A DNA stretch of 52,693 nt from Asticcacaulis biprosthecium C19 (GTDB taxonomy: Bacteria; Pseudomonadota; Alphaproteobacteria; Caulobacterales; Caulobacteraceae). The stretch spans positions 396,831 through 449,523 of the forward strand of contig NZ_GL883077.1 in the NCBI RefSeq assembly GCF_000204015.1, read 5' to 3'. This document shows positions 1 through 19,319 of the stretch, piece after piece. Position numbers and translations under genes: made by a program. The notes below the pieces were generated by a model, which saw nothing but the letters and a program-made list of their open reading frames with translations, did no database searches and was not told the origin of the DNA. Positions within the stretch are counted from its first letter, which is position 1. Every line of letters begins with the position of its first letter.

Positions 1-16
1 ACCGAAAAACCATGCC

Positions 17-394
17 TCACATAAGAAGCCGTTCGATCTGAACCTTGGGATAGGTTCCAAAATTTACAAGCAGGCCTAGCGGAAGACCTGACGCTTTAAG
101 ATAGTTCCGAACTTGCGCCCTGTGTTGGTCCGCCAAGGCCTCAACAGCTTTCAGTTCAAGAATGATTTGGCCGTAACATAAAAAGTCGGGCGAGTAGGTT
201 CTGGCTATGTTTTTGCCTTTGTAGGCCAGGGTCAAAACCGGCTGGACTGAAAACGGGATTTGCCTAGCTATAAATTCCTGCTCCAGACAATCCTGATACA
301 CGGCTTCCAGGAAGCCGCAGCCCATTTCCCTGTAGACTTCGAAGATCGCTCCACGGATAGCAAAGGCTTCGTCTTCGAATAGCAACTTGTTCAA
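17..394 (-). CDS. GxxExxY protein (PD-(D/E)XK nuclease-like fold)
   Basis: Small protein of the GxxExxY family, which belongs to the PD-(D/E)XK nuclease-like fold; the cellular role of the family is not established. Using the start chosen here (125 aa), the signature is G27-F-L-E30-A-V-Y33, and the nuclease-type core reads PD70...E80-L-K82. The open frame extends to a TTG at 430, which would overlap the end of mltA by 23 bp. The TTG at 394 is preferred because AGGAAG lies 6 bases upstream and it begins just after the mltA stop. No ATG start is available near there. It follows mltA on the same strand and may be co-transcribed with it. The complete C-terminus is present. Confidence 0.8.
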   Translation of the reverse strand: MNKLLFEDEAFAIRGAIFEVYREMGCGFLEAVYQDCLEQEFIARQIPFSVQPVLTLAYKGKNIARTYSPDFLCYGQIILELKAVEALADQHRAQVRNYLKASGLPLGLLVNFGTYPKVQIERLLM

Positions 395-407
395 CAGTCG
401 CTTCCTA

Positions 408-1571
408 TCAGTTGCCCACAAACGGAACAATCCGCCACATTTTCAGCTTGTGCTTGATCCGACCGGCTTCGGTGCCCGCCTTGGCGCCATGGCCGACATA
501 AAGATCAGCCCGGATCTGGCCCTTGATCGCGCCGCCCGTATCCAAAGCCGACACCATCCGCTGATAGACCGGAAACGCGTCGGCCAGAGTCCCCGCATTG
601 GCATCGATCCAGAACAGATCACCCAAGGGATTTAACGTCGGATCGACCGCGATCGCCGAACCCGGCGGCAGCGACAAACCAGAAGCCCCCACTGGCGCGG
701 TCCGGTCCGGCTGGATGACAAAAAACCCGTAGCGCGGATTGATATTCATCACCTCGGTCGCCTCCGGACCGCGATGCTCCGCCAGCCACTTATGGATGTT
801 GTCACCCGAGGTCTGGTTCGGCGCCAGGTAACCGCGCTCCTGCATCACCTTGGCGATACCAACGAAGGGCCGACCATTATCGGCGGCATATGCCGAATAA
901 ACCGTCTTGCCGTCGGGCGTGGTCAAAAACGCCGAACCCTGGAGCTGCATGAAGAAATAATCTTCCGGCCGCATATAGTAGCTGGTGGCCACTGGCATCA
1001 GCTCGATCTCGGCGCGGGTGTAGTAGGGGACGTACTTATCGCCGACCTTGCGCGCCGCGATCTTCACCGCCGTCGACGGCGGGGTCAGCTGTGAGCCCGG
1101 AATAACAACGAGATCGTCGGGTTTGGGCCGCACCGGCTGCGAAAATTCGGTCGTCGGCGCATATTCCGCCTGGTAGTCCGGGACATAATAGCCGGTCAGC
1201 AGACCTTCGCCCGGCACCGCCTCGACCTGGAAGCGTGTAATCAGGAAGGCCTTGATATCCGCCGGCGTGTTGAACTCTTCATCCTTCAGGTCGGCACAAA
1301 CCGCAGCATATTGCCGGCCCGCTTTGTAGATGCAGGTGGCGCGCAAAGCTTCCAGGGCGATGAAGGCGTCGCTGTCCACCCAGCCGGGCAGGGTATCCAG
1401 GCGTTTATTGGCCGGCACCGGATTCGCAACAGGTGTTACAGGCGGGGTCACCGGTGGAACGGGTTCGACAACCGGTGGTGTCACGACCGGTGGGGTCGAT
1501 GGCGTTTGCACACATGCGCTGACCAGCAAGGCTGCGGTCAGGGTGAAGCCGATTGCGATTTTCCTGAACAT
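408..1571 (-). CDS. mltA: Membrane-bound lytic murein transglycosylase A (MltA)
   Basis: Lytic transglycosylase that cleaves the glycan strands of peptidoglycan from the periplasmic face of the outer membrane. The 387-aa product starts with a lipoprotein signal ending in the lipobox L-V-S-A-C20, followed by a proline- and valine-rich linker (about residues 23-54) and the MltA domain with LTGYY. The C-terminal 3D domain carries the family motif around ALDTGGAIKGQIRADLY, which includes the expected catalytic aspartate. The open frame reaches upstream to 1628, but the ATG at 1571 is chosen because it begins the signal peptide directly and has GGAGGG 4 bases upstream. The Tim44-like gene lies just upstream on the same strand. 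Confidence 0.92.
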   Translation of the reverse strand: MFRKIAIGFTLTAALLVSACVQTPSTPPVVTPPVVEPVPPVTPPVTPVANPVPANKRLDTLPGWVDSDAFIALEALRATCIYKAGRQYAAVCADLKDEEFNTPADIKAFLITRFQVEAVPGEGLLTGYYVPDYQAEYAPTTEFSQPVRPKPDDLVVIPGSQLTPPSTAVKIAARKVGDKYVPYYTRAEIELMPVATSYYMRPEDYFFMQLQGSAFLTTPDGKTVYSAYAADNGRPFVGIAKVMQERGYLAPNQTSGDNIHKWLAEHRGPEATEVMNINPRYGFFVIQPDRTAPVGASGLSLPPGSAIAVDPTLNPLGDLFWIDANAGTLADAFPVYQRMVSALDTGGAIKGQIRADLYVGHGAKAGTEAGRIKHKLKMWRIVPFVGN

Positions 1572-1638
1572 GCAGCCCTCCGTCATCAAAAACGCGGGCA
1601 CATTGGGCTGATCGCCCAAAGACGTCAAGATTTCAGGG

Positions 1639-2286
1639 TCACGCCTTGGCGGCTTCGACCTTGGTCAGGAGCCAAGGGCTGTTGGCAACCTTCATGCCCT
1701 TCTGGAAGGTCCAGTATTCCGCTGTGCGCTTATGGCTGCGGTGGACCTTGGGGGCATCCGCCTTGGTCGGCGGCACGGCCGACTCTGCGGGTGCTTCGGT
1801 CTTTTCATAGACCAACTCCGACAGGAAGCGGACGCGGATCTGAGCAACCTCATCCTTGAAGTCGATATGGTCGATATCCGCCTTGGGCTGGTCGACAAAG
1901 CTCAACGTCTCTTCCGGCGCAGCCCGACCGACCAAGGCCTTGGCGAAGATGCCGTACACCGTATCCGACAGCTTGTCCTTGACCGCATCCAACTCACCCT
2001 TGTGGAAGGCGATGACGACCTGTTCGTAGGACTCACGCGCCTTTTCCAGAAAGTTCAGCTCGTTGAAATTGGCATCCCGCGTCTTCAGCATTTCGAGATT
2101 AGGCATGCGCGAGGCTTCCGGAAGCTTGTCCGTCTTGGTGCTGAGATCGCCGAAATCGTCACCCTTGACGGTGACGGGCTTGTCTTCGGCGCGGAAGCCC
2201 ACCTTGCGGCCCAACACGTTGTAGAGCTGAAACAAGATCACCACGGCGACGATGGCGAAAATGATGAGGGCGACCATGTTATCCAC
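1639..2286 (-). CDS. Tim44/TimA family putative adaptor protein
   Basis: Alphaproteobacterial relative of the mitochondrial Tim44 import-motor subunit; its bacterial role is not firmly known. The 215-aa protein has one N-terminal membrane segment (about residues 4-24, rich in I, V, A and L), a charged linker and a Tim44-like C-terminal domain of the NTF2-like fold (about residues 70-215). The GTG at 2286 is taken as the start; an ATG at 2277 three codons later is the alternative. It sits divergently from secB, an arrangement common in this group and suggestive of a link to protein translocation. mltA follows 67 bp downstream. Confidence 0.85.
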   Translation of the reverse strand: MDNMVALIIFAIVAVVILFQLYNVLGRKVGFRAEDKPVTVKGDDFGDLSTKTDKLPEASRMPNLEMLKTRDANFNELNFLEKARESYEQVVIAFHKGELDAVKDKLSDTVYGIFAKALVGRAAPEETLSFVDQPKADIDHIDFKDEVAQIRVRFLSELVYEKTEAPAESAVPPTKADAPKVHRSHKRTAEYWTFQKGMKVANSPWLLTKVEAAKA

Positions 2287-2455
2287 GACAGAATCTCTTT
2301 TGCAATCGGCTGGGAAGGCGATCAGTCCCCTCTATATAGGATAAGAATGGTGAATGGGAACTGTTCGTTTCGTTGCCTAAGACAATCTTATCTGATAGGG
2401 GCGTGTCCACCTCTGCGCCAAAGCCATCCGGCGCAACCTCCGGAGCCTGTAGTTT

Positions 2456-2935
2456 ATGACCGAAACCCCCGTCACCCCCGGTTCGCCGCCGATCCCCAAC
2501 ATGCAGATCATGGCGCAGTTCATCCGCGATTTTTCGTTTGAAAACCCGCGCGCGCCTAACTCCCTGCGCATGGAATCGCGGCCCGAGATCGACCTGGGCG
2601 TCGAAATGAGCGCCCGCGGCCGTGACGACGGCCTGTTCGAAGTCGACCTCAAGCTGAACGTCAAGGCGACCACACCCGACGGCCCGATGTTCAATATCGA
2701 ACTGGTCTATGGTGGTCTGTTCCAACTGAGCAGCATCCCGCCCGAGCTGATGGAACCGACACTGCTGGTCGAATGCCCGCGCTACCTGTTTCCATTCGCC
2801 CGCCGCGTCATTGCCGACGTCACGGCCGACGGCGGGTTTGTCCCGCCCTTCTTCCTGGAGCCGATCGATTTCGGCGCCCTCTACGCCCAGCAACGGGCGC
2901 AGTTGCAGAATCAGGCCGCGGCCGGCCAGGCCTAA
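2456..2935 (+). CDS. secB: Protein-export chaperone SecB
   Basis: Cytosolic chaperone that keeps preproteins unfolded and passes them to SecA for export through SecYEG. The 159-aa product is of normal length and shows the SecB core from [16 protein letters not shown] (about residues 16-31), then the beta-sheet segment VDLKLNVKA and the conserved [11 protein letters not shown] region (about residues 105-115). Residues 1-15 are a proline- and threonine-rich leader, usual for alphaproteobacterial SecB. It is the only rightward gene left of the origin and is divergent from the Tim44-like gene. A strong hairpin follows the stop. Confidence 0.95.
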
Positions 2936-2941
2936 ATCTGT

Positions 2942-2967
2942 AAAGCCCGGTGGCAACACCGGGCTTT
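2942..2967. terminator. Bidirectional intrinsic terminator between secB and dnaQ
   Basis: An 11-bp stem (AAAGCCCGGTG and CACCGGGCTTT) around the tetraloop GCAA, with T-rich tails in both directions. It lies between the convergent secB and dnaQ genes and should terminate both. Confidence 0.85.
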
Positions 2968-2968
2968 T

Positions 2969-3658
2969 CTATTTCCAGAGAGACTTGTCTTTCAGGTACT
3001 TGGCGACAAAGGCCTCATGCGCCGCAACCTCGGCAGCCGTTATCCGCGGGGCGAGGGGACGCGGCCGGGCGCCATAGCTGATCGGATTGGCGACCTGAAC
3101 CGCTTCGATCCGCGCTGACGCCATTTCCAGATCCAGTCCGCGTTCCTTCCCGCCCAGAAGTTCCAGATAGACGCTGGCCAGCAACCGGGCATCGATCAAG
3201 GCGCCGTGCAGGTCGCGCTCAGCCAGGGAAATGTTAAAACGCCGGCACAGGGCGTCCAACGAATTGGCCATGCCGGGAAACTTGTTGCGCGCCAGTTCAA
3301 GCGTATCGATCCACTGATCGTCCGGGTGGCAGACGCGGCTGAGACGCTCCATCTCCATATTGATGAAGCCGCGGTCGAAGGCGGCATTGTGGGCGATGAT
3401 GCGCTTGTCGCCGATAAATTCGCACAGCTCGTCAGCGATCTGACCGAACTTGGGTTTGCCCCGGACCTTTTCATTGCTGATGCCGTGCACCCGAATCGCG
3501 TCCGGCTCGATCTCGCGTTCCGGGTCGACAAAGTGGTGAAAGGTCCGACCGGTGGGCAGCAGGTCTTCGATCTCAATGCAGCCGATTTCGATCAGGCGAT
3601 GACCCTTGCGATGGTCAATGCCGGTGGTTTCGGTGTCGAGAACGATTTCTAAGGCCAT
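2969..3658 (-). CDS. dnaQ: DNA polymerase III subunit epsilon (3'-5' proofreading exonuclease)
   Basis: Proofreading exonuclease of the replicative polymerase core. The 229-aa protein carries the DEDDh exonuclease motifs: ExoI DTETTG (residues 8-13), ExoII NAAFDRGF and ExoIII with HGALIDAR, containing the catalytic His and Asp. The C-terminal tail after the exonuclease domain is the usual attachment site for the alpha subunit. It is read leftward and follows coaE by about 30 bp, so it is probably the last gene of the ppsR-maf-aroE-coaE-dnaQ transcription unit. Its position next to the replication origin is typical of Caulobacterales. Confidence 0.95.
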   Translation of the reverse strand: MALEIVLDTETTGIDHRKGHRLIEIGCIEIEDLLPTGRTFHHFVDPEREIEPDAIRVHGISNEKVRGKPKFGQIADELCEFIGDKRIIAHNAAFDRGFINMEMERLSRVCHPDDQWIDTLELARNKFPGMANSLDALCRRFNISLAERDLHGALIDARLLASVYLELLGGKERGLDLEMASARIEAVQVANPISYGARPRPLAPRITAAEVAAHEAFVAKYLKDKSLWK

Positions 3659-3689
3659 GGCCTCTTATGCTGGTGTTTGGGGATCGTTT

Positions 3690-4283
3690 TCAAGAGTCGC
3701 GGGTCAGGTCGGCGATGATTTTTCGCACCTCTTCGCGGCACAGATCCAGGGTTTGCGATGTGTCGATAACGAAATCCGCGCGGCGGCGTTTTTCAGCATC
3801 GGGCATCTGGCGGGCCAGGATGGCAGCGAACTTTTCGGCGGTCATACCCGGTCGCTTCAGTACGCGGTCGGCTTGAATTTCGGCCGGGGCACTGACGACG
3901 AGAACCTTGTCCAGGGTCGCCTCGGCGCCGGTTTCATAAAGCAGGGGTATGTCGGCCACGACCAGGGGGGCGGCGGCATGGCGTTGGAGAAAGTCTTTGC
4001 GGTCGGCGACGGTAGCGGGATGAACCAGGGCGTTGAGCTGATCGAACCGGCCATGCAGGGCTGCCGACAGCTTGACGCGATCGACGACATTGTCACTGAG
4101 AACATCGCCAAAAGCCTGGGTGAGCGCGACTTTGAGCGGCTCCGACTGGGCATAAAGGCGATGGACGGCTTCGTCGGCATCCCAGACCGGTACGCTCTCA
4201 GCCTCGAACATGTCGGCGATGGTCGACTTGCCCATGCCGATCGAGCCGGTCAGACCCAGTCTTACGAGACCTGGCCGTATCAT
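3690..4283 (-). CDS. coaE: Dephospho-CoA kinase
   Basis: Catalyses the last step of coenzyme A synthesis, ATP-dependent phosphorylation of the 3'-OH of dephospho-CoA. The 197-aa product has the P-loop GSIGMGKS (residues 13-20), the substrate-binding WDADEAVHRLY segment and the lid region with the family motif LARQMPDAEKRRRAD. The start codon overlaps the aroE stop by 4 bp (ATGA), so the two genes are translationally coupled. Confidence 0.95.
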   Translation of the reverse strand: MIRPGLVRLGLTGSIGMGKSTIADMFEAESVPVWDADEAVHRLYAQSEPLKVALTQAFGDVLSDNVVDRVKLSAALHGRFDQLNALVHPATVADRKDFLQRHAAAPLVVADIPLLYETGAEATLDKVLVVSAPAEIQADRVLKRPGMTAEKFAAILARQMPDAEKRRRADFVIDTSQTLDLCREEVRKIIADLTRDS

Positions 4284-5134
4284 GCTTCACCGAGATAGGT
4301 CAGGGCCAGGGCCCGGATGTCGAAGGCCGGGTTGGGCGCGGCGCCATAAAAAGCTTCGAACGACGGCCGCGCCTGTTCGATCAGCATGTTGAGCCCGTCG
4401 ACCGTGGCCAGGCCGCGCTCGGCCGCCGCGGTCAGCCAGTTGGTGCGCAAAGGCCGGTAAGTCATGTCCATGATGGTCGCGGCTGTATCCAAGGCATCGA
4501 ACAGGGGGAGGGGACCGCCCGAGGCGGCATTGATCACGGCAACGGCGCCCCGGAAGGCGCGATCGACCTGGGTCAGTTCGAAGGCGGTGACCTTGTCGCC
4601 CGGAAAGGCGAAGACCAGGTCTTCGGCGCGGGCCAGGGTGCGATTGACGATGCGAACCTCCGGCGCGCCGGCGTCCAGCATGGCGGCAACAGCCGCGCGC
4701 GATGCCCCGCCGGCGCCCATGATCACGACAGGTCCGGCCCTAAGGTCGCAACCGGGCGCCTGCAGTTCGAAAGAGCGGACCAGGCCGTGACCGTCGGTGC
4801 TTTGGGCGTGAATCTGGCCGTCGTCATCAAAGGTCAGCAGATTGGCGGAACCACAGACCCGGGCGGATGCCGCAACGGTATCGGCCAAGGAAAGGGCCTG
4901 TTCCTTGAAGGGCGCCGTGATGTTCAAGCCCTTGATGCCATTGCTGCGGCACGACAGGATCAGCCGGTCGAAGCCACGTTCGTCCTTTGGTCCGAAGGCG
5001 GCATAGACCCCGTTCAGCTTCAGGTCGCGCAGCCAGGCATTATGCAGGAAGGGACTGAGCGAATGGTGGATCGGCTGCCCTACGACAGCAGCGATGCGGG
5101 CGGCACCGGTCGGCAGGGATTGAATATCGATCAT
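4280..5134 (-). CDS. aroE: Shikimate dehydrogenase (NADP+)
   Basis: Reduces 3-dehydroshikimate to shikimate in aromatic amino acid synthesis. The 284-aa protein shows the substrate-binding motif SLSP (residues 25-28), the catalytic lysine in NITAPFK, and a Rossmann NADP-binding loop GAGGASRA followed by NRTLARA. Both ends overlap neighbours by 4 bp (maf upstream, coaE downstream), giving a tightly packed leftward operon. Confidence 0.95.
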   Translation of the reverse strand: MIDIQSLPTGAARIAAVVGQPIHHSLSPFLHNAWLRDLKLNGVYAAFGPKDERGFDRLILSCRSNGIKGLNITAPFKEQALSLADTVAASARVCGSANLLTFDDDGQIHAQSTDGHGLVRSFELQAPGCDLRAGPVVIMGAGGASRAAVAAMLDAGAPEVRIVNRTLARAEDLVFAFPGDKVTAFELTQVDRAFRGAVAVINAASGGPLPLFDALDTAATIMDMTYRPLRTNWLTAAAERGLATVDGLNMLIEQARPSFEAFYGAAPNPAFDIRALALTYLGEA

Positions 5135-5721
5135 GCCGGCACGATCCTCATATGGCGCAACTGGGCCAGCAGCGGGAACAGCGAAAGCCCCAGGACGGTA
5201 AAATAGTCGCCGCGGATGGCTTCGAACAGGTGCACGCCTTCGCCTTCGAGCTGATAGCAGCCGACACTGCTCAGGATCTTGTCACCTGCGCGGTCCAGGT
5301 AGCCGTCGATATAATCATCGGAAAGCCGGCGGACGTGCATTTCAGCTGATTCCACCGTCGACCAGACAACGTGGCCACCTTCCGCCAGCGCCAGGCCGCC
5401 GTGCAGGTAGTGCGTTTTACCGCTCATCCGTTTCAGCAGGTCGCGGGCGTCGTCCAGGGTGTGCGACTTGCTGATAAGGTCCTTTTCGAGCTGCAGGACC
5501 TGGTCGCCGCCCAGCACCAGACCGGGATTGCGGGCCGAAACATGCAGTGCCTTGGCCTCAGCTAGTTTCAGCGCGATCGCCTTGGGGCTCATGCCGCGTG
5601 CCAGGCCGTCATCCTTGATGGCGTCCTCATCGAGATCAGCGGGAATCTTGGTAAAAGAAATGCCAGCGCCGGTCAGTAGCGCGGCGCGAGAAGCGGAGCC
5701 AGAAGCGAGGATTAAGGTCAT
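5131..5721 (-). CDS. maf: Maf family nucleotide pyrophosphatase
   Basis: Maf/HAM1-like nucleoside triphosphate pyrophosphatase, thought to remove modified or non-canonical nucleotides. The protein begins MTLILASGSASRAALL, containing the family's ASxSxxR substrate loop, and has LVLGGDQVL, the region with the conserved catalytic acidic residue. The frame runs to a GTG at 5736, but the ATG at 5721 fits the family start and has AGGGG 6 bases upstream. The 196-aa length is normal. Which nucleotide it prefers cannot be read from the sequence. It overlaps aroE by 4 bp. Confidence 0.9.
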   Translation of the reverse strand: MTLILASGSASRAALLTGAGISFTKIPADLDEDAIKDDGLARGMSPKAIALKLAEAKALHVSARNPGLVLGGDQVLQLEKDLISKSHTLDDARDLLKRMSGKTHYLHGGLALAEGGHVVWSTVESAEMHVRRLSDDYIDGYLDRAGDKILSSVGCYQLEGEGVHLFEAIRGDYFTVLGLSLFPLLAQLRHMRIVPA

Positions 5722-5752
5722 GCGAGACCCCTGCACAGGAGATTTTGTTTTG

Positions 5753-6604
5753 TCAAATCCCGCCCAGCCGGCCCGTGCGCTTTTCGTTCAGCAGGCTTAT
5801 GATGGTGGCCGAGGTTTCCTCGATCGACCGCCGGGTGACGTCGATCACCGGCCAGCCCTTGCGTTCGAACAGCCGGCGGGCGCGAATGATTTCTTCACGG
5901 ACGGCGTCGGTGTCGGTGTAGGTCGACGGCCGGTCATCGTTCAAGGTCAGAAGCCGGTTCTTGCGGATCGATACCAGACGTTCCGGCGAAGCAATCAGGC
6001 CAACGATCAGCGGGATATCCAGTTCGTCCAGTTCGTTTGGCGGATCGCGGCCCGGTACCAGCGGAATATTGGCTGCCTTGATGCCACGATGGGCCAGGTA
6101 AATACAGGTCGGGGTCTTCGACGTCCGCGACACCCCGACCAGAACCACATCAGCTTGCCTCAACTTGTCCGCCATGGCGCCGTCGTCATGCGCGATGGCA
6201 TAGTTCAGCGCTTCGATGCGCTCGAAATACTCATTGTCGAGATTGTGCTGGGCGCCGACACGCTTGGACACAGCCGCCCCCAGATGGCGCGAGAAGGCCA
6301 CCACCAGAGGATCCAAGACGCCAATCGACGGAATATCCAACTCCCGGCAGCGCATTTCCAGCATATTGCGCAGTTCCGGATCGATGATGGTGTGCAGGAC
6401 GATGCCCGGAGAGCTCTCGATCTCGGTCAGTGACCGCGCCATCTGCTTTTCCGACCGGATCAGCACATACAGGTGCTCAATCGGCAGAATGCCTTCGAAC
6501 CGCGCCGCGGCGGCCTTAGCCAGGGCGTTCAGCGTCTCACCCGTCGAGTCCGAAATCAGGTGGACGTGGAAATAGGTGCCGATTTTTTGCGGTGTCAGGG
6601 ACAT
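5753..6604 (-). CDS. ppsR: Pyruvate, phosphate dikinase/PEP synthase regulatory protein (PPSR family)
   Basis: Bifunctional serine/threonine kinase and Pi-dependent phosphorylase of the DUF299 family, which switches pyruvate phosphate dikinase or PEP synthase on and off. The 283-aa protein begins with HLISDSTGETL and contains the P-loop-like GVSRTSKTPTCIYLA (about residues 152-166). The C-terminal VTRRSIEETSATI motif is also typical. Whether the target here is PPDK or PEP synthase cannot be decided, because neither gene is in the window. It is the first leftward gene after the origin, mirroring Caulobacter, where hemE and leftward genes flank Cori. Confidence 0.9.
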   Translation of the reverse strand: MSLTPQKIGTYFHVHLISDSTGETLNALAKAAAARFEGILPIEHLYVLIRSEKQMARSLTEIESSPGIVLHTIIDPELRNMLEMRCRELDIPSIGVLDPLVVAFSRHLGAAVSKRVGAQHNLDNEYFERIEALNYAIAHDDGAMADKLRQADVVLVGVSRTSKTPTCIYLAHRGIKAANIPLVPGRDPPNELDELDIPLIVGLIASPERLVSIRKNRLLTLNDDRPSTYTDTDAVREEIIRARRLFERKGWPVIDVTRRSIEETSATIISLLNEKRTGRLGGI

Positions 6605-6863
6605 GACGATTCCTTAAGCGCATTCGCGCCGGCCTGTCTTCGGAAAACTTCGTTCTTCCGTTTCACATAGCTGTCACAGTGATGCGATAAATATAACTGT
6701 GCAAGGAATCCGTGGACAGTTGTGTGCGGATTGTTGGCGATTCCTGTTATCCAGGTTTTCTCGCAGGTGCGTTGGGGATGAGGGTGCACAACCGCCCATT
6801 TTGTCCCGATTCCGTCCAATTGGTTAACAATGTATGAATGGAAATCCGCAGGGTGTGGATGCC

Positions 6864-6878
6864 TTAACCTTTCATTAA
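6864..6878. promoter_or_regulatory. CtrA-type binding site 1 in the origin
   Basis: TTAACCTTTCATTAA followed by C: a perfect TTAA-N7-TTAA site, with the extended TTAAC form on both halves. In Caulobacter such sites let CtrA silence the origin in swarmer cells. Confidence 0.85.
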
Positions 6879-6905
6879 CCATTCAGGCTCAATTCGACCA
6901 CATGG

Positions 6906-6920
6906 TTAAGGAATTCTTAA
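6906..6920. promoter_or_regulatory. CtrA-type binding site 2 in the origin
   Basis: TTAAGGAATTCTTAA: a second perfect TTAA-N7-TTAA site, 42 bp from the first (about four helical turns, same face). The 15-mer is itself nearly palindromic and forms one edge of the AT-rich stretch. Confidence 0.85.
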
Positions 6921-6950
6921 TCAGTATAAAGATTTGGTAAATTATCCGCC

Positions 6951-6970
6951 TTTCCCACAGGCTGTGGGAA
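6951..6970. promoter_or_regulatory. Inverted pair of DnaA-box-like 9-mers
   Basis: TTCCCACAG and CTGTGGGAA form a perfect 9-bp inverted repeat with a one-base spacer (6952-6970). The left part, TTTCCCACA, differs at one position from the general DnaA box TTWTNCACA; the right copy reads similarly on the other strand but is weaker. It lies beside the AT-rich stretch and touches the GAATC/GAGTC pair at 6968-6977. Confidence 0.5.
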
Positions 6971-7131
6971 TCGAGTCATCCCAAGGTGAGTGGACTGTGA
7001 AAAACTCGTGAATCACGCGAAATCTGCGACACTTTTTCGCCCTGTCCACGGCACAATAAACCTCTTCAATCTCTTTTCTTTTTATAAGGTTTAAGTCATG
7101 AGGACGCGTGACACGTCCGAGGATTGACTCC

Positions 7132-8160
7132 ATGCAGGCAGGTAAGGCATCCCTAATCAGGGTTCTGGGCGGCGAGACGGTAACACCGCCGCCGGTATGG
7201 TTCATGCGTCAGGCTGGGCGCTACCTGCCGGAATATCGAGCACTGCGTGCGACGACCTCCGGGTTTGTCGATTTCTGTCTCAACCCGGAAAAGGCAGCGG
7301 AGGCGACGCTTCAGCCCATCCGGCGGTTCGGGTTCGATGCGGCGATCCTGTTCTCGGACATTTTGATGATCCCTCTGGCACTGGGTCAGGACCTGACCTT
7401 TGCCGCCGGCGAAGGCCCTGTGCTGGGCGAATTGCCATCGTTGGAAGCAATGCGGGACAAGGCGCCGTTTGCGGGTGAGGCTTTGAAGAATGTGGGTGAG
7501 ACCGTCGCCCGCGTTAAAGCCGGACTGACCGAGGCGACGACCCTGATCGGTTTCTGCGGCGGGCCGTGGACGGTCATGACCTATATGCTGAACGGCCGAA
7601 AGGCGAACGATCGTAGCCTCATTCGGGCGTTCGTCTATGACGATCCTACCACGGTGCTTAGCCTTATCGACATCGTCATTGAGGCATCGGCGCAGTATCT
7701 GAAGGTCCAGGCCGATCAGGGCGCTCAGGTGTTGAAGATTTTCGAAAGCTGGGCGGAAGGGTTTCCCGATCCGTATTTCGATCTCCTGGTAACGCAACCA
7801 CATATCCGCCTGATCCATCGCGTGCGGGAACTGGGTGTGACCCTGCCGATCATCGGGTTTCCGCGCGGCGCCGAGGCCCGCTGTCTGGATTATGCGCAGG
7901 CCGTGACGATTGAAGCCATGGCCTTAGGAACGGCGACACCGCTTGCGCTGGGTATCGAATTGCAGAAGATTCGGCCGATCCAGGGGGCTTTGGACCCGGT
8001 GGTCTTGCGATCGGGTGGTGCAGCCTTGGATGCGGCGATAGACCGGATTCTCGAAGCCTGGGGGCAGGGGCCCTTGATCTTCAACCTGGGCCACGGCATC
8101 TTCCCTGACACGCCGATCGCCCATGTTGAGCAGGCATTGAAAAGAATCCGCAGTTCATGA
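7132..8160 (+). CDS. hemE: Uroporphyrinogen decarboxylase
   Basis: Converts uroporphyrinogen III to coproporphyrinogen III in haem synthesis by four decarboxylations. The 342-aa product contains the N-terminal substrate-binding motif MRQAGRYLPEYR and the family's GFCGGPWT and FPRGA motifs. The ATG at 7132 is chosen (AGGA 8 bases upstream); a GTG at 7108 in the same frame would add eight residues. The gene begins at the edge of the origin region, as in Caulobacter, where hemE promoters overlap Cori. hemH overlaps its stop by 4 bp. Confidence 0.95.
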   Translation: MQAGKASLIRVLGGETVTPPPVWFMRQAGRYLPEYRALRATTSGFVDFCLNPEKAAEATLQPIRRFGFDAAILFSDILMIPLALGQDLTFAAGEGPVLGELPSLEAMRDKAPFAGEALKNVGETVARVKAGLTEATTLIGFCGGPWTVMTYMLNGRKANDRSLIRAFVYDDPTTVLSLIDIVIEASAQYLKVQADQGAQVLKIFESWAEGFPDPYFDLLVTQPHIRLIHRVRELGVTLPIIGFPRGAEARCLDYAQAVTIEAMALGTATPLALGIELQKIRPIQGALDPVVLRSGGAALDAAIDRILEAWGQGPLIFNLGHGIFPDTPIAHVEQALKRIRSS

Positions 8161-9251
8161 CGCAGACCCCGACCGCGCGAAGCGCTCCAGGCTCCAAACC
8201 CCGCTCAAGCAGTGAAGCGGTAGCGCCCAAAAAAAGAGTTGCAGTCTTAGTGTTCAACCTTGGAGGTCCTGAAAAACAGGCCGACGTCCAGGGCTTCCTG
8301 TACAACCTGTTCGCTGATCGCCGCATCATCGATCTGCCGTGGGGGATACGTCAGGGGCTGGCTTCGCTGATTTCCAGCCGGCGGGCCCCGATAGCCAAGA
8401 AGAATTATGCCTTGATGGGGGGTGGGTCGCCCATCCTGTCCGAAACGCGCGATCAGGCTCAGGCGTTGGAGACGCACCTGAACAGGGGCGCCGGCATCGA
8501 CGCCAAGGTGTTCATCGGCATGCGCTACTGGCATCCGTTCATCGAGGATTGCGTCAAGCAGATCGAGGCGTGGAAGCCGGACGAGGTGGTGGTCCTGCCG
8601 CTGTATCCGCAGTTTTCCTCGACGACGACCCTTTCAGGGTTTGAGGCGTTCAAGAAGGCATGGCGCGGCAAGGCGCCGGTGAAATATGTCTGTTGTTATT
8701 CGGATAATGACCACTTCATTGACGCTCATGTCCAGCTTATCCGGGAATGGCTGAAGAGCAAGGTCGGGGATACGTCAAATGTCCGGCTGTTGTTTTCGGC
8801 ACATGGCCTGCCGGAAAAGATCATCAAGAACGGGGATCCTTACCAGGAGCAGGTCGAGTCATCGGTGGCCAGGATCATGGCGCACCTGGGCGATATCGAC
8901 CACGTCATCTGTTATCAGAGCCGGGTCGGACCGTTGAAGTGGATCGGGCCGTCGACGGATGAGACCATTCAGGCGGCCGGCCGGGATGGCAAGGCGGTGA
9001 TGCTGATCCCGATTGCCTTCGTGTCCGAGCATATCGAGACGCTGGTGGAGCTGGACATCGAATATGCCGAGCTGGCGGAAAAGGCGGGGGTGCACGTCTA
9101 CCGCCGGGTGCCGGCGCTGCGGACGAATAAGGGTTTGATCCAGGCCCTGGGTGCTGAGGTCATGAAGGCTCTGGGGGCGGTCGGTCCAGTGATCGGCGAT
9201 CATGACTGTGCCAAGTGTCACAAGTTCTGCCCGAAGAAGAGGGCGGCATGA
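8157..9251 (+). CDS. hemH: Ferrochelatase
   Basis: Inserts Fe2+ into protoporphyrin IX, the last step of haem synthesis. The 364-aa protein has the start of the catalytic domain VFNLGGP, the YPQFSSTT segment, the active-site histidine region LLFSAHGLPEKII and the C-terminal IPIAFVSEHIETL. The tail reads CAKCHKFCPKK; three clustered cysteines at this position resemble the [2Fe-2S] ligands reported for Caulobacter ferrochelatase. Residues 1-25 form a low-complexity Ser/Pro-rich leader. ATGA overlaps join it to hemE before it and hemJ after it. Confidence 0.95.
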   Translation: MTQTPTARSAPGSKPRSSSEAVAPKKRVAVLVFNLGGPEKQADVQGFLYNLFADRRIIDLPWGIRQGLASLISSRRAPIAKKNYALMGGGSPILSETRDQAQALETHLNRGAGIDAKVFIGMRYWHPFIEDCVKQIEAWKPDEVVVLPLYPQFSSTTTLSGFEAFKKAWRGKAPVKYVCCYSDNDHFIDAHVQLIREWLKSKVGDTSNVRLLFSAHGLPEKIIKNGDPYQEQVESSVARIMAHLGDIDHVICYQSRVGPLKWIGPSTDETIQAAGRDGKAVMLIPIAFVSEHIETLVELDIEYAELAEKAGVHVYRRVPALRTNKGLIQALGAEVMKALGAVGPVIGDHDCAKCHKFCPKKRAA

Positions 9252-9697
9252 GATGGTTTGACTTGGCCCGCGGGCTGCACATCGTTGCCGTGATCGCCTG
9301 GATGGCCGGGCTGTTGTACCTACCACGGCTGTTTATCTATCACATCAAGCATAGTGACCAGCCAGCAGTAACCAGCGTCTTCTCGGTCATGGAGCGCAAC
9401 CTGCTGCGGATCATCATGAATCCGGCGATGATCTTGGCGTGGATTTTCGGCTGCTGGATGCTGTATTTCCATTATACATGGCATGAATGGGGCCTGTTTG
9501 CCCAGCCTTGGTTGGATGTAAAGTTGATTGGGGTTGTGATTTTGACCGGGTATCACCACTTCCTGGCGGTGCGGTTCAAGAAGCTTCAGGCCGGTCAGGA
9601 CATTGGGACGGAAAAGTTCTGGCGGATGATCAACGAACTGCCGATCCTGCTGGCGCTGGTGATGGTGGTTTCGGTCACGCTGGAGTGGACCTGGTAA
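9248..9697 (+). CDS. hemJ: Protoporphyrinogen oxidase HemJ
   Basis: Membrane-bound enzyme that oxidises protoporphyrinogen IX to protoporphyrin IX, the step before HemH. The 149-aa protein has four predicted membrane segments and conserved HemJ features: an N-terminal H in ARGLHIVAVIAWMAGLLYLPRL with the following R, and later GYHHF. The start is the ATG overlapping the hemH stop by 4 bp; an upstream in-frame codon at 9215 would lie inside hemH and is rejected. hemE-hemH-hemJ form one operon covering consecutive late haem steps except coproporphyrinogen oxidase. Confidence 0.92.
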   Translation: MRWFDLARGLHIVAVIAWMAGLLYLPRLFIYHIKHSDQPAVTSVFSVMERNLLRIIMNPAMILAWIFGCWMLYFHYTWHEWGLFAQPWLDVKLIGVVILTGYHHFLAVRFKKLQAGQDIGTEKFWRMINELPILLALVMVVSVTLEWTW

Positions 9698-10019
9698 AGA
9701 TATGTAATGGGGTCTGGGCCCGCGGCCCCATAACTTTTTCTTCTTTCTTTCCTGACCTTGCCCGAGGGCAAGGTCAGGAAAGAAAAGAGGGAAGACTTGG
9801 GGCCTCAGGCCCCAAACCCCGTAACATTCTCCTTGACGAGCGTCGCTCCAACGCGCACAAAACGCTCCATCAGGCCCCACGTTCTGTGGACTCGCCTTCT
9901 CACTTTAAAATTTATCAGCCTTTTCCGATCGTTACCGAAAAAAAGGTTAGGGGACTCGTCAAACGCCAACGGCATAACCGCCGCGGGCCGTTCTACGCGT
10001 CCATCGCAAGAGAGACCTC
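9698..10019. other. Gene-free hemJ-rho interval
   Basis: 322 bp. The first part (9707-9820) is an array of hairpins described separately. The rest (about 9821-10019) is the rho leader; no further gene, operator or riboswitch is recognised in it. Confidence 0.6.
9707..9820. repeat. Cluster of three inverted repeats between hemJ and rho
   Basis: Three consecutive palindromes: ATGGGG/CCCCAT (9707-9731), a long one with arms of about 20 bp (9744-9763 and 9766-9785, containing CCTGACCTTGCC) and TTGGGGCCT-C-AGGCCCCAA (9797-9815). The 13-mer GGCCCCAAACCCC at 9808-9820 recurs inverted at 41607-41619. The long hairpin could terminate the hem operon, but the set looks more like a dispersed intergenic repeat. 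Confidence 0.7.
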
Positions 10020-11414
<1,395 letters not shown>

Positions 11415-11420
11415 TCGGAG

Positions 11421-11608
11421 TAGGGACCCCTCCGTCGGCTTCGCCGACACCTCCCCATAAAATGGAGAGGAGAGGCTCGGGCGGCCCGTCGGCCTTGCCT
11501 CAGGCTTCGCCTTCGGAGTGGTGTGGTCACTCACGACCCACGGAGGAGGGTTCGCAAACTTCTCCTCCCCAGGTATTGCGGAGAGGGACCCCGAAGGGGT
11601 GGAGGGGT
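11421..11608. repeat. Composite intergenic palindromic repeat after rho
   Basis: The gap between rho and the DUF6489 gene holds an element bounded by the inverted ACCCCTCC (11426-11433) and GGAGGGGT (11601-11608). Nested hairpins include GTCGGC-TTC-GCCGAC (11434-11448), an imperfect CCTCCCCAT/ATGGAGAGG (about 11450-11470) and ACCCC-GAA-GGGGT (11588-11600). It resembles REP-type elements common between alphaproteobacterial genes. No open frame of interest is inside. Confidence 0.65.
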
Positions 11609-11724
11609 ATTCTTACGGCGGGTTCCCTCTGCACAAGCAGCTCTTCGTTTCAAATCCCTTGCCAACCCGGTATGACAGGCTCATATCGGGTTGACGTTTT
11701 ATGAACTCTGCTTCGGAGCCCCGC

Positions 11725-11985
11725 ATGAAGGTCACGGTCAATGTCGAATGCTCACCCCAGGAAGCCCGCGCCTTTCTTGGCCTGCCCGACGTCGAGCCGC
11801 TGAACGACTACATGATCTCGGCGATGAAACAGCGTATGGAACAGAACATCCACTCCATGAAGCCCGAAGAGATGATGAAGAACTGGTCGAGCCTGGGGGT
11901 CACCGCCCAGGACCAGTTCTTCAAACTGATGCAGTCGGCAGCTCAGGCGTCTATGGGTAGCTTCGGCGGCAAGGACGCCAAGTAG
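11725..11985 (+). CDS. DUF6489 family protein
   Basis: Short 86-aa protein of unknown function, recognised as a conserved alphaproteobacterial family (DUF6489) often found near mnmE. It starts MKVTVNVECSPQEARAFLGL, has a helical middle and a methionine-rich segment, and ends GGKDAK. No signal peptide or membrane segment is visible. The ATG at 11725 is preferred over 11701 because GGAG lies 6 bases upstream and the conserved part begins there. The stop is 3 bp before the mnmE start, so the two are probably co-expressed. Confidence 0.75.
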   Translation: MKVTVNVECSPQEARAFLGLPDVEPLNDYMISAMKQRMEQNIHSMKPEEMMKNWSSLGVTAQDQFFKLMQSAAQASMGSFGGKDAK

Positions 11986-11988
11986 GCT

Positions 11989-13329
11989 GTGTTTCACGTG
12001 AATCAAACCATCTTCGCCCTGGCCAGCGCCCAGGGTCGCGCCGGTGTGTCGATCCTTCGCCTCTCGGGACCAGATGCATTTTCCGCCCTACAGCGCCTCA
12101 CCGACAAACCCGTGCCCGCCCGGCGCGCTGTGTTTACCGCACTGGTTCACGACGGCGAACTGATCGATGAAGCGGTGGTCCTCTTCTTTCAGGGTCCGAA
12201 CAGCTTCACCGGCGAGGACTGCGTCGAACTCCACGTCCACGGATCACGCGCCATCCTGGACCGGCTCTATGTCATTCTGGCCGAGATGGGCTTGCGTCTG
12301 GCTCAACCCGGAGAGTTCTCCCGCCGCGCGCTGGAGAACGGCAAGCTGGATCTGACCCAGGCAGAGGCCATCGCCGACCTGGTCGATGCCGAGTCCGAAG
12401 CGCAACGCCGTCAGGCCCTGACCCAAATGGGTGGCGGCTTGAAGACCCAGTACGAAGCCTGGCATGCGGCCCTGGTCGACATCCTGGCGCGGATCGAAGT
12501 CTATATCGACTTCCCCGACGAAGACCTGCCGACCGAACTGGTTGACTCTATCCTCGATCGGATGGCCGCGGTTCAGGCGTCTTTGGAAGCCGCCATCGCA
12601 GATGCCAAACGCGGCCGGCAAATCCGTGAGGGCTTTCGGATTGTCATTCTCGGCGAGCCAAATGCCGGCAAGTCGAGTCTGTTCAATGCGCTGCTGAAGG
12701 CTGAAACCGCCATTGTCACTCCGATTGCCGGCACGACCCGTGATGTCATCGAGGCGGAACTGCGGATCGGGCCCTATTCTGTCCTTCTCTACGACACGGC
12801 CGGACTGCGCGAAACCGCTGAAGTGGTCGAACGTGAGGGGATACGTCGAGCACGGGCGAAGGGGGACGAGGCTGACCTAAGACTTTGGGTAATCGATTCG
12901 TCCGCGTCCGGACTCGACGGGGTTGAATCGAGGGCAGGGGACTTGGTCGCCTTTAACAAGATTGATCAGGGTTCTGACAATCTATACGAGTCTTTCAAAG
13001 ACGCAGATGTTTCACGTGGAACATCGGCATTCAAAGTCAGCGTGGCCACGGGTCAGGGAATCGACGAACTGGTCCGCGCGTTGGAATCGGTCGTAACGAA
13101 ACGTCTCTCGGTTCAAACCTTCCCGGCAGCCACGCGCGCCCGCCATTTCGAACGGCTACAAGACGCGGTGGATCATTTGGATCACGCGCGCCTGACCCGA
13201 ATGCGCGTGCCGGAGCTGACAGCCGAACATGTCCGTGGGAGCATCAACAGTTTTGAAGCTCTGTTTGGTCGCTATGATGTTGAAGGCATACTGGACGTTG
13301 TGTTCTCGACCTTCTGCATCGGCAAATGA
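11989..13329 (+). CDS. mnmE: tRNA uridine-5-carboxymethylaminomethyl(34) synthesis GTPase MnmE
   Basis: GTPase partner of MnmG, modifying U34 in the wobble position of certain tRNAs. The 446-aa protein has the N-terminal folate-binding domain (FALASAQGRAGVSILRLSG), a helical domain, an inserted G domain with GEPNAGKSSL (about residues 220-229) and DTAG, and the C-terminal FCIGK, whose Cys is conserved. The start codon GTG at 11989 overlaps the first base pairs of a parS-like site (11990-12005), so the N-terminus MFHVNQ is dictated partly by that site. A GTG at 11998 is an alternative. A second parS-like site lies inside the gene. Confidence 0.93.
   Translation: MFHVNQTIFALASAQGRAGVSILRLSGPDAFSALQRLTDKPVPARRAVFTALVHDGELIDEAVVLFFQGPNSFTGEDCVELHVHGSRAILDRLYVILAEMGLRLAQPGEFSRRALENGKLDLTQAEAIADLVDAESEAQRRQALTQMGGGLKTQYEAWHAALVDILARIEVYIDFPDEDLPTELVDSILDRMAAVQASLEAAIADAKRGRQIREGFRIVILGEPNAGKSSLFNALLKAETAIVTPIAGTTRDVIEAELRIGPYSVLLYDTAGLRETAEVVEREGIRRARAKGDEADLRLWVIDSSASGLDGVESRAGDLVAFNKIDQGSDNLYESFKDADVSRGTSAFKVSVATGQGIDELVRALESVVTKRLSVQTFPAATRARHFERLQDAVDHLDHARLTRMRVPELTAEHVRGSINSFEALFGRYDVEGILDVVFSTFCIGK
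11990..12005. promoter_or_regulatory. parS: parS-like ParB binding site 1
   Basis: TGTTTCACGTGAATCA matches the bacterial parS consensus TGTTTCACGTGAAACA at 15 of 16 positions. It overlaps codons 1-6 of mnmE. Confidence 0.85.
13008..13023. promoter_or_regulatory. parS: parS-like ParB binding site 2
   Basis: TGTTTCACGTGGAACA, 15 of 16 match, and within the degenerate form TGTTYCACGTGRAACA. It lies inside mnmE, encoding VSRGT in the G-domain region. Confidence 0.9.
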
Positions 13330-13342
13330 TTCACGTGAAACA
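13327..13342. promoter_or_regulatory. parS: parS-like ParB binding site 3
   Basis: TGATTCACGTGAAACA, 15 of 16 match. It begins within the mnmE stop codon (TGA at 13327-13329) and extends into the mnmE-mnmG gap. Confidence 0.88.
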
Positions 13343-13411
13343 TCGCAAATAGCGATTCGACCCTGGGCGCCGTATCTGCTATAGGGCCCATCTGAATTTC
13401 CGGATATCGAT

Positions 13412-15280
13412 ATGACTGAACAAACCCTGTGGGACGTGATCGTCGTGGGCGGCGGACATGCCGGCTGTGAAGCCGCAACCGCCTCCGCGCGCATGGGCGC
13501 CAAGACACTTCTGCTGACCCACCGCTTCGACACTCTCGGCGAAATGTCGTGTAACCCGGCGATCGGTGGTCTAGGCAAGGGCCATCTGGTGCGTGAAATC
13601 GATGCCCTGGATGGCATCATGGGCCGGATGGCGGATGTGGCGGGCATGCAGTTCAAGGTGCTGAACCGCTCCAAGGGCCCCGCCGTGCGCGGTCCTCGCG
13701 CCCAGATCGATCGCAAGCTTTACCGTCAGGCTGTTCAGGCGGAACTGTCTCAGACAGAAAACCTGACGATTATCGAAGGCGCCGTCGAAGATCTAATCCT
13801 GGACAATGGCATCGTGTGCGGTGCGATTGACGCCGCCGGGCAAAACTATCGGGCCAAGGCTGTTGTTCTCACGACGGGGACCTTCCTGCGTGGCATGATC
13901 CATATCGGTGACAAGCGGACCCCCGCCGGACGATGGGGTGACCAGCCGGCGAATGGCCTGGGTCAGCGCCTGTATGATTTGAAGCTGGATATGGGTCGGT
14001 TGAAGACCGGAACGCCGGCGCGTTTGGAAGGCAAGACCATTCACTGGGACCGGCTGGAACAACAACTCGGTGACAATCCGATCACCCCTTTTTCCTATCT
14101 GACCCCGTCGATCGAACGCGACCAGATCGCCTGTGGCATCACCTACACCAACGCCGAAACCCATCGCATCATCGCTGAGCGGCTGCAGGAATCGGCGGTC
14201 TATGGTGGACATATCGCCGGCCGTGGCCCGCGTTATTGTCCGTCGATCGAAGACAAGGTGGTCAAGTTCGCCGACAAGACCTCGCATCAGATCTTTCTCG
14301 AGCCGGAAGGCTATGACGACGATACCGTCTATCCCAACGGTATTTCGACCAGCGTCTCCGAAACGACGCAGGACGCCTTCCTGCGCACGATTGTTGGCTT
14401 GGAAGACGTGGTTGTCAAACGCTACGCCTATGCCATTGAATATGACTATGTCGATCCACGTGAACTGAACCCGAGCCTCGAGCTGAAGCGCCTGCCGGGT
14501 CTGTTTCTGGCGGGTCAGATCAACGGGACCACGGGGTACGAGGAGGCCGGCGCCCAGGGCCTGATGGCCGGGCTGAATGCGGCGGTGCGGGCGGGTGGTC
14601 AGGCGCCGGTCGTTCTGGGTCGCGACGAAGCCTATATCGGGGTGATGATCGATGACCTGATCACCCGTGGCGTCACCGAGCCCTATCGCATGTTTACCAG
14701 CCGCGCGGAATTTCGGTTGAGCCTGCGCGCGGACAATGCTGATCAACGCCTGACCGACAAGGGTGTCGCCATTGGTGTTGTAGGGGCACGTCGTCAGACG
14801 GCGTGGACTGAAAAGCGCGATGCCTTGGCCGGCATTCGGCAGCGCGCCGCCGAGCTGAACGTCGGACCAAAAGAGGCGTTGAATCAAGCCATCCATGTCA
14901 ACGGCGATGGTCAGCGGCGTAATGTCATGCAGCTGATGGCCTATGACAGCTGCTCACGTGAAAAGCTGGAAGCCCTGTGGCCTGAGATCTCCGCCTGGCC
15001 CGACGCGCTGTATGAACAGGTCGAGATCGACGCACTCTATGCCGGTTATATGGGGCGTCAGAAGGCTGAGATAGAAACCTTCCGCAAGGACGAGAACTTG
15101 GCCTTGCCGGCGGACCTCGATTACATGGCCATTGTCGGCCTGTCGCATGAGGCACGTGAAAAATTGAACCGCATTCGTCCGCAGACCCTGGGCCAGGCGG
15201 GGCGCATCGAGGGCATTACCCAAGGGGCTCTGACGACCCTTTTGTTCTATGTGCGCAATCACAACAAGCGGTCGGCATGA
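13412..15280 (+). CDS. mnmG: tRNA uridine-5-carboxymethylaminomethyl(34) synthesis enzyme MnmG
   Basis: FAD- and NADH-dependent partner of MnmE in U34 modification. The 622-aa protein starts with the dinucleotide-binding motif [14 protein letters not shown] (about residues 9-22), followed by the MnmG signature [13 protein letters not shown] and [16 protein letters not shown], and a helical C-terminal domain. The two conserved cysteines are present as SCNPAIGG and in the C of RYCPSIEDK. Its last codons overlap rsmG by 4 bp. Three CACGTG cores lie inside but do not match parS. Confidence 0.96.
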
Positions 15281-15930
15281 CTGAGCCGATGACCCCCGCC
15301 GAGATGGCGGCCAAGCTCGTGTTTCACGTGAAACAGGAGGCCGTTGACGATCTGACGGCCTTTGGCGCAATGGTGGCCGACAAGAATGAAGTGATGAACC
15401 TGGTCGGGCCCTTGACCCTACCGCACTATTGGTCGCGCCATGTCCTGGACAGCGCCCAATTGCTGAATCTTCGGCCGAACGCCCAAACCTGGGCCGATCT
15501 GGGGGCAGGGGCTGGATTTCCCGGGGTGGTGCTGGCGATCCTGCTGAAACACACGGCTGACGCGCCAAACGTCTATCTGATCGATTCCCTGGCCAAGCGC
15601 TGCCGGTTTCTGGAGGCGGTTGTCGCCGAACTGGCCTTGCCGGCGGTGGTTATCAATGACCGCGCCGAAAATTTGAACCTCCGGGTGGATGTGGTGACGG
15701 CCCGGGCCTGTGCTCCCATGACCCGCCTTCTGGGCTTTGCCGAGCGCTTTATCCACAACGGTGCCGATGCCTGGTTTTTAAAGGGGGAAAACGTTGGCGA
15801 AGAACTCAGTGAAGCTGGCAAGGCCTGGCGTTTTCAGGTAGAACAGAGTGAGTCACTGTCCGATCCCCGCGGACGAGTCGTCCATATACAAGGGTTACAA
15901 CGTGCCAAATCTTCAACAAGGACAAGATGA
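15277..15930 (+). CDS. rsmG: 16S rRNA (guanine(527)-N(7))-methyltransferase RsmG
   Basis: Methylates G527 of 16S rRNA with S-adenosylmethionine. The 217-aa protein shows the SAM-binding motif [17 protein letters not shown] (about residues 72-88), then [15 protein letters not shown] and the VVTARACAP motif. The segment KLVFHVKQ near the N-terminus (about residues 13-20) is encoded by a perfect parS site. It starts in an ATGA overlap with mnmG. A GTG of the downstream parA could begin within its last codons. Confidence 0.94.
15320..15335. promoter_or_regulatory. parS: parS site 4 (perfect match)
   Basis: TGTTTCACGTGAAACA, a perfect palindrome identical to the canonical parS, inside the 5' part of rsmG. 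It is the strongest of the four sites and about 0.6 kb upstream of parA. Confidence 0.95.
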
Positions 15931-15937
15931 GAAGACC

Positions 15938-16726: not shown

Positions 16727-16748
16727 AGACGGCCTTAAAGGAAGCTAA

Positions 16749-17633: not shown

Positions 17634-17719
17634 AAGGAAATTTTTGAAGAACGGCGTTTGTCGCGAATTTGGCGGCGGAAGCCGTATCAATGCCGGTCAG
17701 ATTCGTCAGAAATGGGCGG

Positions 17720-18772: not shown

Positions 18773-18814
18773 GTGTTTTGGGTGCCGGGTCTCGACCCTG
18801 CCCGTCGGAGGCCC

Positions 18815-19318: not shown

Positions 19319-19319
19319 C

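Follow-up and report, generated by a model that had tools for sequence, protein, structure and literature searches.

Cori, the replication origin of Caulobacter, serves as a model for the coupling of a developmental regulator to replication. The locus described here raises the question of whether the intergenic region between ppsR and hemE in an Asticcacaulis genome is an origin of the same type, and which parts of its control are conserved. The DNA analyzed, hereafter referred to as the window, is a stretch of 52,693 bp on contig C2 (2.37 Mb) of a 5.41-Mb Asticcacaulis genome (G000), and its hemE shares 94% identity with the hemE of Asticcacaulis sp. AC402. A Cori-like origin had been proposed for this gap in an earlier, sequence-only reading of the window. 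Its position and flanking genes, the linked parS sites, a sign change of the skew in two relatives, and a core shared by all 25 Asticcacaulis gaps compared indicate that the gap is quite probably the origin from which the chromosome of this Asticcacaulis species is replicated. It would then be the counterpart of Caulobacter Cori, with CtrA blocking weak DnaA sites.

Position of the gap and strand asymmetry

The intergenic, Cori-type region occupies positions 6605..7131 (527 bp) and contains 53% AT in a window of 40% AT. It is bordered on the left by ppsR (COG1806/DUF299; 5753..6604, minus strand), an ORF that reads away from the gap, and on the right by hemE (7108..8160, plus strand), which starts either with GTG at 7108 or with ATG at 7132; the two ORFs diverge around the gap, as the sequence-only reading had described. 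In C. crescentus, Cori is bordered by this same COG1806/DUF299 gene. The adjacency of ppsR and hemE is widespread, being found by tblastn at 78 of 80 named loci, in all 25 Asticcacaulis genomes (gap length 453 to 604 bp), and in 39 of 40 genomes picked across the order. Loci L075 and L238 (G036, a Caulobacteraceae record), which are probably located on one contig (328,190 bp in both cases), may have a rearranged origin border, since ppsR was not found upstream of hemE. In another genome, G022, the hemE match (L110/L111) is split in two and interrupted by two in-frame TGA codons, reflecting either a broken gene or an assembly error.

The parABS locus, which had been placed to the right of the gap, is found there. 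Four parS sites on the plus strand, located by a parS scan 4.9-8.2 kb to the right of the gap (11990-15335), comprise three with one mismatch (11990..12005, 13008..13023, and 13327..13342) and one perfect copy (15320..15335); the relatives G017 and G020 each contain three perfect parS sites. They are followed by two ORFs on the plus strand, 15848-16726 and 16749-17633, which are presumed to be parA and parB, respectively, an identity assigned from family features of their translations. The sole perfect TTATCCACA in the window lies at 15749-15757, between the perfect parS (15320) and the parA ORF. As a candidate conserved site, this perfect DnaA box near parS was discarded, being present only in G000 and absent from the matching 20 kb of G017 and G020. 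Matches to CtrA, GcrA, and the RAMA domain of CcrM-type enzymes were obtained for genes elsewhere in G000, and these, like the linked parS sites, are in keeping with such an origin; the GcrA family is represented at two places on C2 (821499-822043, matched in two pieces, and 2289590-2290093).

GC skew, which the sequence-only reading had named as a check, was sampled in 20 stretches of 20 kb per genome in G017 and G020, two single-contig members of the genus. Across the gap, the skew changes from -0.045 to +0.037 in G017 and from -0.039 to +0.036 in G020, and its sign fits two replication arms in 19 of 20 samples (the misfit being -0.007) and 20 of 20 samples, respectively. About halfway around each genome the skew switches back, at 0.4 to 0.6 Mb in G017, whose antipode is at ~0.66 Mb, and at 2.7 to 3.0 Mb in G020, whose antipode is at ~2.93 Mb. 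Within the 40 kb examined, the cumulative skew reaches its minimum on the ppsR side of the gap, at a distance of ~1.3 kb in G017 and ~1.2 kb in G020. The proposal of a Cori-like origin is thus supported by both the Cori position of the gap and the skew switch in these two relatives, neither of which shows the displaced switch that the sequence-only reading had named as refuting it.

The same check was only suggestive on the own contig of the window, where the mean skew is near zero, not negative, in the eight samples left of the gap, positive in 15 of 19 samples from 450 kb onward, and reaches only a shallow cumulative minimum ~10 kb left of the gap in the stretch examined. Strand orientation was also scored with 7-mers oriented on G017 and G020, which in cross-tests between the two relatives called the strand correctly for 20 and 17 of 20 samples; on the own contig the score is positive in 18 of 19 samples right of the gap and in 3 of 8 left of it. 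Inside the window it is negative from 30 to 48 kb, right of the gap. Given the near-zero left side, the minimum off the gap, and this sign flip, own-contig GC skew was dropped as proof of the origin. The skew of C2 is near neutral over 1-400000 and most strongly positive over 2160001-2371000, its right-hand extremity, although in a closed circle of 2.37 Mb the sign should already have switched there. This pattern is suggestive of inversions, of a mis-join, or of a contig that does not form a closed circle.

An origin beside dnaA, a gene that lies close to Cori in C. crescentus, was also considered. It was rejected because dnaA is distant (G000:C2:571991-572473, outside the window and 168 kb from the gap; ~100 kb from the gap in G017 and G020, away from the skew change) while the skew of G017 and G020 switches at the gap. 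The location of the origin at the gap is therefore well supported in the genus and likely in this strain.

A possibly phased array of CtrA boxes around a conserved core

Perfect CtrA boxes (TTAA-N7-TTAA) occur exactly twice in the 52,693-bp window, both within the gap and 42 bp apart, at 6864..6878 (box 1) and 6906..6920 (box 2). A further box, TTAACAATGTATGAA at 6824..6838, carries one mismatch, as do seven copies in the window overall. Since the genome contains the perfect pattern at just 40 places, two copies in 527 bp greatly exceed chance (0.004 expected at the genome-wide frequency; P = 5e-5 for two or more in the resampled gap, the resampling being a first-order Markov walk rather than an exact dinucleotide shuffle). 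The genome-wide number itself is not above chance, because the backward pattern used as control occurs at 35 places. The only other tight cluster among the 40 consists of three overlapping perfect copies in 37 bp at G000:C2:1966946-1966982. Across the 25 Asticcacaulis gaps, 57 perfect boxes are observed versus 0.75 expected; each gap contains at least one perfect box and three to six within one mismatch.

Alignment of these gaps reveals a core of ~150 bp, the length of which is constant to one or two bp. The core begins with TGTG-N6-TTAA-N7-TTAA, present in 25 of 25 gaps, in which box 1 is always perfect and, in the window, is followed by CCAT as in TTAACCAT. Beside box 1 lies TGTGGATGC (6854..6862, minus strand), a DnaA-like 9-mer that reads GCATCCACA on the minus strand. 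Box 2 is retained within one mismatch in 24 of 25 gaps, 41-42 bp after box 1 (41 in one subclade), and box 3 in 23 of 25, having decayed in G009 and in the window species, where it reads TAAAGATTTGGTAAA with two mismatches (6927..6941). The motif TTGGTTAATTATCC, with small variants allowed, is positioned 79-80 bp after TGTG in every gap, and its GGTTAA forms the right half of box 3. Mean column conservation is 0.80 and 0.86 in boxes 1 and 2 and 0.55 in the interval between them, which, being poorly conserved, indicates that the spacing is kept while the sequence drifts.

Box 3 directly abuts TTATCC-N6-TTCACAGG, the Asticcacaulis form of a family-wide element, TTRTCC-N6-TTCACAGG, that may be read as two weak DnaA boxes in tandem; in the window it appears as TTATCCGCCTTTCCCACAGG with two mismatches (6942..6961, plus strand). 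It overlaps an inverted pair, CCCACAGG-CTGTGGGAA (6954..6970), which includes CCCACAGGCTGTGGG at 6954-6968 and occurs as the exact CACAGGCTGTG in 12 of 25 gaps. Further right, TGTG[AC]AA is found 61-62 bp past the box 3/TTATCC motif in all 25 gaps, with a full fit to TTWTNCACA in 18; the window has TGTGAAAAA (TTTTTCACA on the minus strand) at 6996..7004 on the minus strand, which fits this consensus. The AT-richest 40 bp of the gap (80% AT; 6906..6945), a candidate unwinding stretch, start at box 2, and the corresponding stretch begins at +51/52 from the core TGTG in 21 of 25 gaps. Towards ppsR, where Caulobacter has a G-box, a left element of the form CTGTG...GTGG with DnaA/W-box-like half sites (6697..6713, minus strand) has 5 of 17 columns invariant in the 25-gap alignment and is not adjoined by a CtrA box here.

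No 9-mer of the gap matches TTATCCACA within one mismatch, and six do so with two mismatches (71 in the whole window, corresponding to ~0.7 expected in the gap); the DnaA-like sites of this gap are accordingly weak. The paired and third CtrA boxes, the DnaA-box-like 9-mers with their inverted pair, and the AT-rich stretch pointed out in the sequence-only reading were all recovered by these counts. The word GGTTAATTATCC was rejected as origin-unique, having one-mismatch matches at four other places in the genome. In positions 1-20000 of the window, no Rfam match was obtained, a weak test for a ccnA-like RNA, as ccnA may not be an Rfam family.

The boxes of the 25 gaps occupy a limited set of distances from the core TGTG, namely -30, +10, +51/52, +72/73, and +112 to +118. 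The main steps of ~40, 42, and 21 bp would be close to whole helical turns and are followed by a step of 39-45 bp; out-of-phase extra boxes are present at +34 (six genomes), +100 (two), and +229 (one). Five of the 25 genomes have the box at -30 (the one-mismatch box of the window) within one mismatch, and 19 have one at +112, +117, or +118. The left and right flanking boxes co-occur in none of the 25, and G011 has neither within one mismatch. When these labels are placed on a tree of the ppsR and hemE proteins, several forks of which are weakly supported, each requires two changes. This distribution suggests that one flanking box replaces the other, but the events are few and the total varies from three to six boxes per gap. 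Nearly every genome retains the three core boxes, and the flanking boxes come and go.

In the proposed mechanism, DnaA would assemble on weak sites, comprising the TGTG before box 1, the tandem TTATCC-N6-TTCACAGG, and TGTGAAAAA. By analogy with Caulobacter, at whose Cori CtrA is reported to exclude DnaA (PMC4468827, PMC4285127), phosphorylated CtrA on the boxes would sterically exclude DnaA in non-replicating cells, and once CtrA falls, the filling of the tandem element and its flanking sites by DnaA would open the AT-rich 6906-6945. The core CtrA boxes do directly adjoin DnaA-like sites. Against this reading count the decay of box 3 in this species, the lack of a gap DnaA box within one mismatch of TTATCCACA, the varying number of boxes, and the out-of-phase boxes at +34 and +100, and the AT-rich core could serve hemE/ppsR transcription as well.

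Alternatively, the boxes might mainly constitute a CtrA-regulated divergent hemE/ppsR promoter, with replication starting in another intergenic region no more than a few kb away. Promoters commonly carry CtrA boxes, the skew of the relatives locates the origin with a precision of only ~1-2 kb, and a figure legend describes transcription of hemE as important for C. crescentus replication (PMC8959179). The conserved sites, however, are 128-278 bp away from hemE (start at 7132) and at least 250 bp from ppsR, they pair CtrA boxes with DnaA-like half sites, and the equivalent gap, between hemE and the COG1806 gene, is where the C. crescentus origin was mapped experimentally (PMC1914354), which together make the promoter explanation improbable.

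GANTC density as a lineage trait

Dense CcrM sites had been included in the proposed Cori-like logic, and as a count this part of the sequence-only reading is correct. Eight GANTC sites are present in the gap (6608, 6706, 6739, 6808, 6968, 6973, 7010, and 7126), versus 2.5 expected from its composition (about two in the earlier estimate; P of eight or more = 0.003 by resampling). For comparison, 20 sampled stretches of 20 kb, one of them containing the origin, average 0.96 sites per 527 bp, and 0.03% of segments of that length have at least eight; another 527-bp segment with eight lies near 12,850. The 20 kb around the gap contain 61 GANTC sites, the highest number among 28 sampled stretches of C2. 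Densities near this value, 60 and 54 per 20 kb, were observed at C5:700001-720000 and C4:480001-500000 of the same genome.

As a component of a conserved origin, the dense sites did not hold up. The gaps of G000 and its sister genomes G009 and G011 contain 8, 10, and 9 GANTC sites, respectively, and those of the other 22 genus members contain one to four; no position is common to all 25, the best being 7126, shared by 14. Per 20 kb around the gap, the counts are 47 and 56 in G009 and 56 and 51 in G011, compared with 30 in G010 as an outside comparison, and G011 has 46 and 37 elsewhere. Dense GANTC is not conserved, because it is confined to three sister genomes, and its density is, judged from the genomes compared, a lineage trait.

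These counts bear directly on the idea that the origin is timed by CcrM, the dense GANTC sites acting through hemimethylation like GATC in E. coli oriC. Such timing would be in keeping with the enrichment in the gap and its surrounding 20 kb, with the equally rich gaps of both sisters, and with work on C. crescentus in which several GANTC sites are noted in the origin and earlier studies are cited for extra chromosomes upon CcrM over-expression (PMC3973325). According to the same source, however, the control of initiation in C. crescentus does not require CcrM (PMC3973325); the low counts in 22 members, the absence of a shared site, and the comparably dense stretches on other contigs also oppose it, so that CcrM timing is very unlikely for this species and an oriC/SeqA-like arrangement was rejected as a conserved feature. 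Least probable of all is that the functional origin has moved in this species and left the gap as a relic, as the weak own-contig skew and decayed box 3 might hint, given that boxes 1 and 2 are perfect, their spacing is intact, parS is linked, and the oriented 7-mers step up at the gap.

Comparison with known origins and the family-wide element

The comparison was extended to 74 non-Asticcacaulis gaps, that is, the 80 named loci minus four from Asticcacaulis and two without a ppsR match. In other Caulobacteraceae, TTRTCC-N6-TTCACAGG sits near the center of the gap, and with up to two mismatches it is found in 26 of the 74 gaps versus 1 of 370 resampled ones. Its consensus was drawn by eye from part of the data; a hold-out omitting the 20 loci seen first gave 18 of 54 versus 0 of 1080 resampled, the hold-out gaps including related genomes and hence not being independent. 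The spacing of six is sharp only at two mismatches (26 of 74, compared with at most 8 for spacings 2-5 and 7-11), as at three mismatches spacing 5 gives 37 and spacing 6 gives 45 of 74.

The element is closely associated with a CtrA box. Within one mismatch, such a box precedes TTRTCC by exactly 0 bp in 22 of 25 Asticcacaulis gaps and by exactly 3 bp in 24 of the 74 others, with no other distance found between 0 and 8 bp. Many gaps have TTRTCCCC, and TCCCCA is the published W-box consensus (PMC4285127); one W-box is present in the window gap, the mean being 1.76 per Asticcacaulis gap versus 0.39 resampled, and five are given for C. crescentus. Of 33 gaps from four other families of the order, five contain the element with up to two mismatches (control 0-1.3% per family). 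Although this is above chance, a shared arrangement outside Caulobacteraceae is not claimed, because four of these matches are on the opposite strand and their positions vary.

In four loci (L064, L065, L070, and L071), the right half of the element reads TTAACAG, which in L064 and L071 forms the left half of a perfect CtrA box (offset 293). The IHF sequence published for the CtrA/IHF site of C. crescentus (PMC4285127) matches this L064 box in reverse complement. The dual CtrA/IHF site of C. crescentus may therefore be a derived re-use of the right half of the element, through a change from TTCACAG to TTAACAG. In the Asticcacaulis gaps themselves, no IHF site was found, none of the 25 matching the published loose consensus WATCA-N5-WTR; this is a weak test, because only 6 of the 74 other gaps match (L064 has one) and the published C. 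crescentus IHF sequence itself departs from the consensus.

Taken further, these observations permit a tentative picture of the ancestral Caulobacteraceae origin, one that we consider possible but rather doubtful. Its heart would be a CtrA box placed 0 or 3 bp from the tandem weak DnaA element TTRTCC-N6-TTCACAGG, with CtrA bound as an array in phase with the helix, in which the flanking box changes sides while the core boxes stay, and with the CtrA/IHF dual site as a derived state.

No description of an Asticcacaulis replication origin was found in open-literature titles and abstract openings; Shaheen et al. 2009, the most relevant comparative paper (cited in PMC4468827 and PMC4285127), lies outside this scope, and a prior description is possible. 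The alignment distinguishes parts that are kept, including the core box spacing, the DnaA-like sites touching CtrA boxes, and the element shared by the family, from parts that are not, including GANTC density, the G-box, and the left-hand CtrA box. The conserved sites provide short and precise targets for footprinting and for origin swaps among Asticcacaulis, Brevundimonas, and Caulobacter.

Among known systems, the Cori of Caulobacter crescentus/vibrioides is the most similar, sharing the gap between hemE and COG1806/ppsR, several TTAA-N7-TTAA boxes (five in C. crescentus; two perfect and one with one mismatch in the window), weak DnaA sites, an AT-rich stretch, and parS within ~8 kb (PMC4468827, PMC1914354). 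Its central box also resembles box 2, as illustrated by TTAAGAATTCATTAAGG in L064 and TTAAGAATTTTTTAAGG in G020. The two differ in the order of their sites, as the sequence-only reading had anticipated: the perfect boxes of C. vibrioides (L064) are distributed at gap offsets 35, 245, 293, and 415, whereas those of Asticcacaulis cluster around one core, and none of the 25 gaps has a CtrA box within one mismatch at a distance of over 60 bp to the left of the core TGTG. A perfect G-box, TGATCCACA, is absent from all 25 and present in 11 of the 74 other gaps. In C. crescentus, the noncoding RNA CcnA is reported to start near an origin CtrA box and to be presumably activated by CtrA (PMC8959179). 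That box, taken as the left-hand one because CcnA is 182 nt long, would serve the ccnA promoter and would thus have no counterpart in Asticcacaulis. Brevundimonas-type gaps (20 of the 24 with the 3-bp arrangement are named Brevundimonas) resemble those of Asticcacaulis in that a CtrA box stands directly on the left of a central TTRTCC element, but differ in the distance of 3 rather than 0 bp and in having fewer other boxes, placed otherwise; several of the 24 are without the ACAGG half. The putative origins of Rickettsia and Wolbachia, likened here by their description, also have a hemE border and CtrA-, DnaA-, and IHF-type sites predicted in silico (PMC1914354). The best reading of the Asticcacaulis origin is accordingly that of a Cori-type origin that varies in the order of its sites.
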